A stretch of 64,000 bases of DNA. Origin: Synechococcus sp. SynAce01 (GTDB lineage: Bacteria > Cyanobacteriota > Cyanobacteriia > PCC-6307 > Cyanobiaceae). A program made the position numbers and the translations under genes. Where the stretch lies: contig NZ_CP018091.1 of the NCBI RefSeq assembly GCF_001885215.1, forward strand, positions 434,001 through 498,000. The letters run 5' to 3'. The notes under the pieces are model-generated. The model was not told the origin of the DNA, made no database searches, and was given only the letters and a program-made list of their open reading frames with translations. Each line of letters begins with the position of its first letter. Position 1 is the first letter of the stretch. Shown in pieces: positions 3,753 through 11,635 of this stretch.

Positions 3753-8853
<5,101 letters not shown>

Positions 8854-8888
8854 CCCTCGGCCAAAAGAGTGGGGCGAAGCTAACCCGC

Positions 8889-9428
8889 TTAGCGCAGATC
8901 TGAAGGACTGATCTGGAGCGGGGTCAGGATTGCACGGCATCGCCGCAAGCCTTCCTGGCAATCTGCCGCCATCAGCAGACCTGCCCCGCCCCAGAACACC
9001 CGCAGAACCAAGTCGAGAGGCCCACTGCCCACCGCCCGGCCAGGCACGAATCCAAAACGCCGGAAGTAGCGCACCAGGCGCTGATGTTGTCGCTGTTCAT
9101 CCCGAATCGCCAGCAGCTGGGCTCGGCGGCAGGGCGTTTGCTCCAGGGCCCAGGCAAAGGTGGCGGCCCAGATCAGCACCCCGACGATCCGGTCGTCGGA
9201 GCGCACCCGCAGGGTGTCGAGATGGAGGCCAGAGGGGAGCGGCAGGGCCCAGCCCTTGAGCTCACCGAGTAACTCCGCCGCTTCCCCCTGCCGGCAGCGG
9301 GCCACCCCGACCCGCAGGCCCCAGACCCCCAGGCGCCGGCCAACCTGGAGGCGAAGGCGCAGACCGCGTGCCGCGGCCAACAGCTCGATCGCGGCGAGGC
9401 TGGGCAGGCCTGGGGGCAGGTCGCTCAT
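8889..9428 (-). CDS. Conserved cyanobacterial GNAT-like protein
   Basis: A 179-aa protein. The central part (LDTLRVRSDDRIVGVLIWAATFAWALEQTPCRRAQLLAIRDE) followed by RLVRYFRRFGFV looks like the acetyl-CoA-binding half of an N-acetyltransferase, with the typical F-R-R-x-G-F end of the fold. The N-terminal half does not show a clear GNAT pattern. The substrate is unknown. Its ATG overlaps the stop of the GST-DUF952 gene (ATGA at 9425-9428), so translation is probably coupled. Confidence 0.6.
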   Translation of the reverse strand: MSDLPPGLPSLAAIELLAAARGLRLRLQVGRRLGVWGLRVGVARCRQGEAAELLGELKGWALPLPSGLHLDTLRVRSDDRIVGVLIWAATFAWALEQTPCRRAQLLAIRDEQRQHQRLVRYFRRFGFVPGRAVGSGPLDLVLRVFWGGAGLLMAADCQEGLRRCRAILTPLQISPSDLR

Positions 9429-10405
9429 GCCGGGTAACGCTCCACCGCAAGCACCGCGCCGATGGGCAGGGGACCGTAGAGATGGGGGAAGCGTTCACCG
9501 CCAGGCGGCACCGGCTCCAGCTTCAGGGGAGCCGTGAGCCGGTCGGGATCAATGGTGAGCAGCCGCACCGCCCCGGCATCGGCGTAGAAACGCTGGTAGG
9601 TGGCGGCCAGCTGGTGAGCCCAGCTGGCGTGGATGAATCCCACCTGCTCCAGGCTCTGGCCCCGGGTCGAGCGGAGATACACCCCTGCCGCCTCTGCCTC
9701 GTCCCATTCAGCGGCCAGTGCCAGGTGGTAAAGGAAACGGGGAGAGCGCCAGCGCAGTTGCTGGCCCATCACCGCCGAGAAAGCTTCGCTGGCCAGAAAA
9801 CGCTCGAGCCAGTGCTGCAGGGGCCCAAGCCCGGGCTCGTTGTCGAAGCCGGCCGGGTCGGCCAGGCGGAACTGACGCACGAACGGCAACAGGGCCAGAT
9901 CGGCAAGGCAGGGGCGCGAGCCCAGCAGCCAGCCGCCGGCCCCAGCGGAAATCCCGGCGGCCAATGCCGCGTTCCAGCGATGCAGAACCGCCAACGCGGC
10001 CTGGCGATGGGCCGTCGCATCGGCGCCCGGATAGCGACTGGCGTATTTGAAGCGATCGAGATGGCCCTTGAACGTTCCGTCATTGATCGCCACCAGTTCG
10101 TCGCTTCTGCGGGCCAGCTCGGGCTCGCCGCGTCGCAGCAGATCCTGGGGATCGGACTGCCCCAGCGCCCAGTGCATCACCTCCAGGCTCTCCTCAATCA
10201 CCCAGACCGGCCGGCCGCTGCTCGCTGGGCCTTCCAGCACCGGCACCGTGCCCTTCGGTGACACCGCCAAAAGCTCGGCCGGCTTGGCCTGGAGGCTCAC
10301 CTCGCGCAGCTCCACCGCCAGGCCAGCCGCGCTCAGGGCCAGCCGGGCGCGGATCGCGTAGGGGCAGCGGCGAAAACTCCACAGCACCGGAGCCTGGCCA
10401 CTCAC
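9425..10405 (-). CDS. Glutathione S-transferase fused to DUF952 domain
   Basis: A 326-aa two-part protein. Residues about 6-215 form a GST: a thioredoxin-like domain with CPYAIRARLALSAAGL and the cis-proline motif KGTVPVLE, then a helical domain. Residues about 222-322 are a DUF952 domain: FLYHLALAAEWDEAEAAGVY, the GFIHAS motif, LLTIDPDRLTAPLKLE and FPHLYGPLPIGAV. DUF952 proteins are usually short and free-standing, and their reaction is not established. The start is GTG 10403-10405, whose bases overlap the stop of the 75-aa gene (GTGA). Both neighbours are joined by 4-nt overlaps, which argues for one operon. Confidence 0.85.
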   Translation of the reverse strand: MSGQAPVLWSFRRCPYAIRARLALSAAGLAVELREVSLQAKPAELLAVSPKGTVPVLEGPASSGRPVWVIEESLEVMHWALGQSDPQDLLRRGEPELARRSDELVAINDGTFKGHLDRFKYASRYPGADATAHRQAALAVLHRWNAALAAGISAGAGGWLLGSRPCLADLALLPFVRQFRLADPAGFDNEPGLGPLQHWLERFLASEAFSAVMGQQLRWRSPRFLYHLALAAEWDEAEAAGVYLRSTRGQSLEQVGFIHASWAHQLAATYQRFYADAGAVRLLTIDPDRLTAPLKLEPVPPGGERFPHLYGPLPIGAVLAVERYPA

Positions 10406-10629
10406 CGCGCGGCCAGGAGGCGTTGCAACGACGCAGAGACGCCGACACGCTCGGCGGGATCTCCAACAAGCGTTAGCTCGCCGGACTTCGGCCACCAGTT
10501 GAGGCGAAGATTGGTATCTGGCCCACCGAAAATGAACATCTCGAACTGACCTTTGTGTTCCCAGTGGCCCTGGCCATCGAGGGAATCCACCAGAACCTTG
10601 AGCTCATCAAGCGTGCCAAGGAATGTCAT
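10402..10629 (-). CDS. Small conserved protein (75 aa)
   Basis: A 75-aa protein starting MTFLGTLDELKVLVDSL, with a central GHWEHKGQFEMFIFGG and then NLRLNWWPKSGELTLVG. It looks like a compact alpha-beta domain rich in aromatic residues; there is no signal peptide or membrane segment. I believe similar short proteins occur in other cyanobacteria, but I do not know a function. It starts 25 bp after trhO and overlaps the next gene by 4 nt. Start ATG 10629 was chosen because longer forms run into trhO and lose the typical composition. Confidence 0.7.
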   Translation of the reverse strand: MTFLGTLDELKVLVDSLDGQGHWEHKGQFEMFIFGGPDTNLRLNWWPKSGELTLVGDPAERVGVSASLQRLLAAR

Positions 10630-10654: not shown

Positions 10655-11635
10655 TTACGGAGCTGGACTGGCTTGGGGATCCACCGCCCAAGCTGCAGAA
10701 CCGATGTGGTTCTCCCCCCGCCCGCGCGCCAGGGAGATCTGGCGTTGGCGCTCGGCGAAGCGAGCACAGTCGGCGTTGCTGAATTGGCCGATGCAGTGGT
10801 GGCAGCTCACCCCTTCCACGTAGCTGGGCTGCTGGCGATCGGCCAGCGAGAGGGGCAGCCCGCAGGCATGGCAAAGGCTGTGGCTGCCGGGCTCGAGCCG
10901 GTGATTCAGCGCCACGCGCTGGTCAAAGACGAAACACTCGCCCCGCCAGCGGCTCTGGCTCTCGGGCACCTCCTCGAGATAGCGAAGGATCCCCCCCTTC
11001 AACTGGTGCACCCCCTCGAATCCCTGCTGCTGGAGATAGGCCGTGGCCTTCTCACAACGGATGCCGCCGGTGCAGAACAGGGCCAGCCGGCGGGGCTGGC
11101 GCGCCGCCACCAGAGCGTGGAGATCGCGCTCCACCCAGGCTGGAAAGTCGCGGAAGCTGGCGGTGGCCGGATCGATCGCCCCGTCGAAGCTGCCCAGCGT
11201 CACCTCATAGGTGTTGCGGGTGTCGATCACCAGGGTGTCTGGGTCCGCGATCAGGTCGTCCCACTGCTGCGGCGGAACGTCGGTGGTCTGCCGTTGCGCC
11301 GGCTGGATCTCCGGCCGGCCCATGGTGACGATTTCAGCCTTGATCCTCAGCTTCAAGCGGTGGAACACCTGCCGCTCACTCCAGCTGAATTTGGGCTCAA
11401 GATCGGCCAGGCGGGGATCAAGGCGCAGCTGATCGAGAAAGCCACGCAAGCCAGTCTCAGGCCCGCAGAGCGTTCCGTTCAGACCTTCCTCGGCCAGCAA
11501 CAGGGTGCCTTTCAGGCCAGCGGCCGCCGCCAGCGGCAGCCATTCGGCGCGCCGCTGGCGGAGCTCGCCGGGCTCGAAGCTCACGAACGCATAGAACGCC
11601 GCCACCAACCAGGGGGTATCGCCGGAATCGCTCAC
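10655..11635 (-). CDS. trhO: tRNA uridine(34) hydroxylase TrhO (rhodanese family)
   Basis: TrhO uses oxygen to hydroxylate uridine 34 in the tRNA wobble position, the first step to 5-methoxyuridine-type modifications. The 326-aa protein has the N-terminal acylphosphatase-like domain ([14 protein letters not shown]), the rhodanese domain ([19 protein letters not shown]) with active-site loop [10 protein letters not shown], and a C-terminal four-cysteine zinc-like region (CHACGLPLS...CHHC). This is the YceA architecture. GTG start at 11633-11635 overlaps the bioB stop. Confidence 0.92.

Follow-up and report, generated by a model that had tools for sequence, protein, structure and literature searches.

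The locus and its genes

The window, i.e., the whole stretch of 64,000 nucleotides analyzed here from Synechococcus sp. SynAce01 (NZ_CP018091.1, positions 434,001 to 498,000), belongs to a genome assembled as a single contig of 2.75 Mb. It carries a gene in which a glutathione S-transferase (GST) is followed by a DUF952 domain (Table 1). The frame is uninterrupted from its GTG start at 10405 to its stop at 9425-9427; an alternative in-frame GTG lies upstream at 10495, and the alignment of the relatives begins at about 10405. The Pfam domains score 50 bits for GST_N_3 (cut-off 22), 27.2 for GST_C_2 (cut-off 24.9), and 89 for DUF952 (PF06108; cut-off 23.7), and AlphaFold2 modeled the entire protein with confidence (mean pLDDT 94.3, pTM 0.82). 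The fusion proposed in the initial annotation is thus confirmed, with one frame, both domains above the Pfam cut-offs, and conservation across the Cyanobiaceae.

Table 1 Features at the locus (window coordinates)
Feature	Coordinates	Strand	Basis
GST-DUF952 fusion gene	9425..10405	minus	single open frame, 326 aa; Pfam; AlphaFold2 model
GST half, residues 1-222	9740..10405	minus	GST_N_3 and GST_C_2; C14, P55, S73; SspA/GST structures
DUF952 half, residues 223-326	9428..9739	minus	PF06108; H227, H259, Q265, P307-H308; CC0527, Tpt1/KptA
75-aa gene	10402..10629	minus	overlaps fusion start by GTGA; no Pfam/NCBIfam match
B_179, 179-aa gene	8889..9428	minus	overlaps fusion stop by ATGA (9425-9428); no Pfam/NCBIfam match
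TrhO (tRNA uridine-34 hydroxylase) gene	10655..11635	minus	NCBIfam NF001133, 282.5 bits; upstream of fusion

The four-base overlap between the 75-aa gene and the fusion recurs in the congeners G002 and G003 (GTGA, TTGA). Homologs of the 75-aa gene occur in 47 of 201 Cyanobiaceae genomes. Among the 19 fused loci read, the gene adjoins the fusion in three (G000, G002, and G003), all of the window's genus, and in the other genomes with a homolog either the fusion was not found or the two genes sit far apart or on separate contigs. The 75-aa gene had been regarded as a partner of the fusion; with adjacency limited to one genus, it was rejected as a general partner. Its protein family has the motifs GHWEHKG and TNLRLNWWP, and PADLOC returned a single weak match (E 0.0035). 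Searches of PDB and Pfam with the 75-aa and 179-aa genes yielded nothing convincing; by eye B_179 appears GNAT-like, with no confirmation in the Pfam and PDB searches. TrhO is a same-strand neighbor in 13 of the 19 fused loci, and so is B_179. At the 21 GST-only loci, TrhO stands beside two and B_179 beside one. Elsewhere in the window, a 988-aa frame (5995-8961) combines a Fer4_5 iron-sulfur part with a C-terminal cyclic-nucleotide-binding domain.

Distribution of the fused, GST-only, and stand-alone forms

The distribution of the fusion was examined in an even draw of 201 genomes from the Cyanobiaceae, the family of the window, in which some assemblies are incomplete. The fusion protein was matched in 156 of these genomes, and DUF952 is present in 103. 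Synechococcus and Cyanobium are among the named holders of the fusion. In 102 of the 103 genomes the DUF952 copy lies within an open frame of at least 317 aa, and the remaining short copy (G143) stops at the edge of its contig, GST sequence being present in the same reading frame. Both halves share one frame in the 56 distinct rows read. Imperfect copies were also seen, one with a TGA within the match (G094) and others matched in pieces (G084, G134, G120, G141, and G159). The GST part alone was matched in 53 of the 156 matching genomes, some of whose assemblies are incomplete. The fused form is present in about half of the sampled Cyanobiaceae genomes, and the joining is old. The long frames rule out that the fusion arose through misassembly or through loss of a stop codon. 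The pattern named in the initial annotation as a refutation, homologs with two separate genes and a fusion only here through such a loss, is not what was found: the fusion is conserved in the family. A literature search, not exhaustive, found no published description of a GST-DUF952 fusion.

Among 386 genomes drawn across the phylum, 77 had DUF952, of which 33 are Cyanobiaceae and 44 belong to other families. The DUF952 frames of these 44 are 109-230 aa long, except for a fusion to a HAD phosphatase (G245) and two broken copies (G547 and G285). With the same three exceptions, the earlier statement that DUF952 is usually alone holds for the 44 genomes. The GST half is rare in other cyanobacterial families, with matches in three of 23 genomes and a strong match in one only.

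Evolutionary history of the fusion

Rooted on alphaproteobacterial homologs, the GST tree has fused forms throughout the Cyanobiaceae, and GST-only forms are nested among them, beside fused sisters. A single clade of all fused rows was rejected (AU test, p=4e-36), with five fused/unfused changes; the test used 54 rows, with L205-L209 and L066 omitted and fused rows thinned, ten being forced in. The nested position of the GST-only forms and the rejection of a single fused clade indicate that DUF952 was lost repeatedly. The fused state is therefore ancestral in the sampled family. On the same AU result, a GST-only ancestor was rejected. In G106 (L084), DUF952 is absent, yet TrhO and B_179 still flank the GST.

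Among 55 proteins (1485 pairs), the mean identity between relatives is 58.8% and 57.4% for the two halves. They diverge at similar rates, thus neither appears freed from constraint. As many as 53 of 156 genomes have lost DUF952, so the domain is dispensable.

In the DUF952 tree, the 56 fused rows group together (SH-aLRT 87), with four actinobacterial rows as their neighbors (86). The insert S[TSG]xG is found in 54 of 56 fused and 62 of 65 actinobacterial rows, and in none of 35 other cyanobacterial and five other rows. A clade of fused and other cyanobacterial DUF952 was not rejected (AU p 0.158), and the fused rows need two changes versus one on the thinned tree. This test used 59 rows, with Bernardetia and Catenovulum omitted and the fused, actinobacterial, and cyanobacterial rows randomly thinned, six actinobacterial rows being forced in. 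Since that clade was not rejected, an actinobacterial origin of the DUF952 half, with which tree and insert agree, is no more than likely. Shadow frames overwhelmed the clustering of gene neighbors around the actinobacterial copies.

The GST half

C14, P55, and S73 are invariant in 54 fused, 19 GST-only, and nine outgroup rows. From their positions in the sequence, we take C14 to be the catalytic residue, P55 the cis-Pro, and S73 the glutathione-site Ser. With the N and C domains both above the curated cut-offs and the Cys, cis-Pro, and Ser positions kept, this half belongs to the GST superfamily. Comparison of its model with known structures retrieved SspA and GSTs at Z 21-22 (L132, which holds X, was excluded from the structure alignments), and SspA is also among the best PDB sequence matches (E about 1e-7). 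GSTs of Sphingobium, Phaeobacter, and relatives in the alphaproteobacteria are 41.9-48.8% identical over 93-97% of the GST half in 11 plasmid records; of nine alphaproteobacterial plasmid matches from another search, five were read. The GST half probably binds glutathione and acts via C14 as a predicted thiol transferase or deglutathionylase.

The DUF952 half and the ADP-ribosyltransferase fold

H227, H259, Q265, P307, and H308 are invariant in all 43 fused rows. DUF952 was already placed in the Pfam ADP-ribosyltransferase (ART) clan and in SCOP d.166.1.7 (PMC7955679, PMC3000352). Its description as a domain with no known reaction was right as to the reaction, none having been found, and overlooked this known fold. 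DUF952 spans several phyla. Modeled alone, the domain is again confident (pLDDT 95.3, pTM 0.87), and structure comparison of the model places it in the ART fold. The closest structure is CC0527 (2o0q, 2o0p; Z 15.1-15.2, rmsd 1.8 over 100 residues, 33% identity), followed by Tpt1/KptA at Z 9-10 for most entries and by other ART-fold chains at Z 6.5-8.2. With Foldseek, only CC0527 reached E ≤0.001, and Tpt1 stood at 0.003. In a PDB search with the DUF952 profile, CC0527 was the sole match below E 0.3.

The ribose of NAD is held in Tpt1 by the HGT motif, with arginines forming a cage around the phosphates (PMC6333775). Profile comparison of DUF952 with 11 cyanobacterial KptA sequences gave a weak signal (E 0.03 and 0.008; probability 2% and 5%), and in the same weak match two conserved DUF952 histidines stand in register with HGT and VHLS of KptA. 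By this weak alignment, the phosphate-caging arginines have no counterpart in the DUF952 half, and at the ART-lobe arginine column, 38 of 43 fused rows have V, whereas all 35 stand-alone rows have E. The PTS_2-RNA family (PF01885) gave no match to the fusion protein at E up to 1, and none in G000. The Arg-His-Arg-Arg tetrad of Tpt1 is not reproduced, by the same weak alignment, and its N-terminal RNA lobe is lacking, the N-terminal part being the GST. The first DUF952 histidine is K in alphaproteobacteria (CC0527, S. meliloti), thus it is not universal. On these grounds, NAD binding by the DUF952 half is offered as a hypothesis. Inactive members, and members with other ligands, are common among ART-fold domains.

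DUF952 in other contexts

Relatives were also sought by scanning contigs with one peptide pattern, the best 80 of 575 relatives listed being kept, so that fusions elsewhere are under-sampled. In the analysis as a whole, DUF952 was seen once each in fusion with an arginyl-transferase domain, HAD (G245), ArsC, and chorismate mutase. An independent DUF952-ArsC fusion lies in a Bdellovibrionaceae MAG (L196, 453-1178), ArsC being a thioredoxin-fold, thiol-using enzyme. Enzymes of the ArsC type use glutathione and glutaredoxin. In Bernardetia (L122, 3203-4264), DUF952 is joined to an arginyl-tRNA-protein transferase-like domain, and in Janibacter (L140, 3455-4315) chorismate mutase and DUF952 share one frame, with a linker that has no visible start codon.

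Stand-alone copies have neighbors of their own. The gene pyrD directly follows DUF952 in all five alphaproteobacterial loci read (L119 3905-5337, L123, L230, L231, and L232), and in S. meliloti the two overlap by four bases. The adjacency to pyrD is a stronger lead to the function of DUF952 than the GST fusion. Of 35 cyanobacterial loci with stand-alone DUF952, 11 have the same amidase nearby (L117, L089-L093, L100, L105, L107, L114, and L118). An AtzG-like gene clusters there in four loci, the assignment being Pfam-checked in L091. A phage scaffold from human faeces, itself unverified (L234, 1125-3315), holds a DUF952-like stretch (E 5e-10) and an amidase-like stretch. A DUF952 gene is also listed in a table of a Pelagibacter iron-limitation study, with the values 1.52 and 0.051 (PMC2864753).

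Proposed function and alternatives

Our tentative reading, which we hold at less than even confidence, is that the fusion is a GST of the cysteine type to which an accessory, ART-like module is attached. In such a two-domain enzyme, the N-terminal GST would bind glutathione and work through C14. The C-terminal DUF952 would be a minimal ART-fold lobe, most likely binding an NAD-like nucleotide or a nucleotide-linked small molecule, and would modify or present the same substrate class as the GST half. Their joining would predate the diversification of the sampled family, and the core activity is taken to be that of the GST because it is retained where DUF952 was dropped. We consider it very improbable that both halves are catalytic on a shared molecule, the GST adding or removing glutathione and DUF952 transferring ADP-ribose from NAD to the same molecule or its glutathionyl group. 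If true, such an enzyme would tie thiol detoxification to NAD in picocyanobacteria and give DUF952 its first reaction.

The GST half could instead be a non-catalytic module for dimerization or protein binding, as in SspA, with DUF952 as a binding domain and the whole protein as a regulator or adaptor. In sequence as in fold, SspA ranks among the structures that best match the GST half, and the Tpt1 arginines are missing from DUF952; however, C14, P55, S73, and the DUF952 histidines are invariant, as expected of working pockets, and other kinds of GST match the fold equally well, which leaves a scaffold unlikely. The initial annotation took the fusion to point to a glutathione-linked substrate, and DUF952 might act directly on a glutathione conjugate produced by the GST half. 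That the fusion occurs in 103 of 201 Cyanobiaceae genomes, and that DUF952 was independently fused to the glutathione-linked ArsC, would fit; but chorismate mutase, the arginyl-transferase, and HAD as partners and pyrD and the amidase as neighbors have no obvious link to glutathione, and many genomes (53 of the 156) keep the GST without DUF952. The pointer to glutathione is thus weak, its one favorable sign being the ArsC fusion, and direct action on the conjugate is quite unlikely.

A role on tRNA or a nucleotide, with DUF952 as a Tpt1-like lobe and TrhO as a functional neighbor, would accord with Tpt1/KptA as the nearest solved structures after CC0527, with TrhO beside 13 of the 19 fused loci, and with the transferase fusion in Bernardetia. 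Against it, the protein has no RNA lobe and its ART lobe no counterpart of the tetrad arginine, and the adjacency of TrhO may merely mirror a conserved DacA-UppS-BioB-TrhO order; we regard this role as distinctly unlikely. Repeated loss of DUF952 would also be expected of a neutral tail carried along passively, but its pocket residues are invariant and its identity among relatives is similar to that of the GST half, so that hitch-hiking is the explanation to which we give the least credence. The fusion protein is confidently modeled, its two pockets lend themselves to joint mutation and assay, and relatives with a natural loss of DUF952 provide a ready comparison. An active ART-like half would make this one enzyme a link between glutathione and ADP-ribose chemistry.

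Comparison with known systems

The GST half shares the CPY motif and the fold with SspA and the cysteine-type (omega-like) GSTs, whereas its identity to them in the structural match is only about 16-24% and they are without a comparable second domain. The alphaproteobacterial GSTs, where annotated, are stand-alone genes without DUF952. On the other side, CC0527 of Caulobacter (PDB 2o0q, 2o0p, 2jqn; SCOP d.166.1.7) has the Pfam family and fold of the DUF952 half, but it stands alone, with no GST, no STRG insert, and K at the position of the first histidine. The RNA 2′-phosphotransferase Tpt1/KptA has an NAD-lobe fold akin to that of the DUF952 half, with histidines in register by a weak profile match; the DUF952 half differs in having no RNA lobe and no counterparts of the ART-lobe arginines, and the sequence signal between the two is weak.
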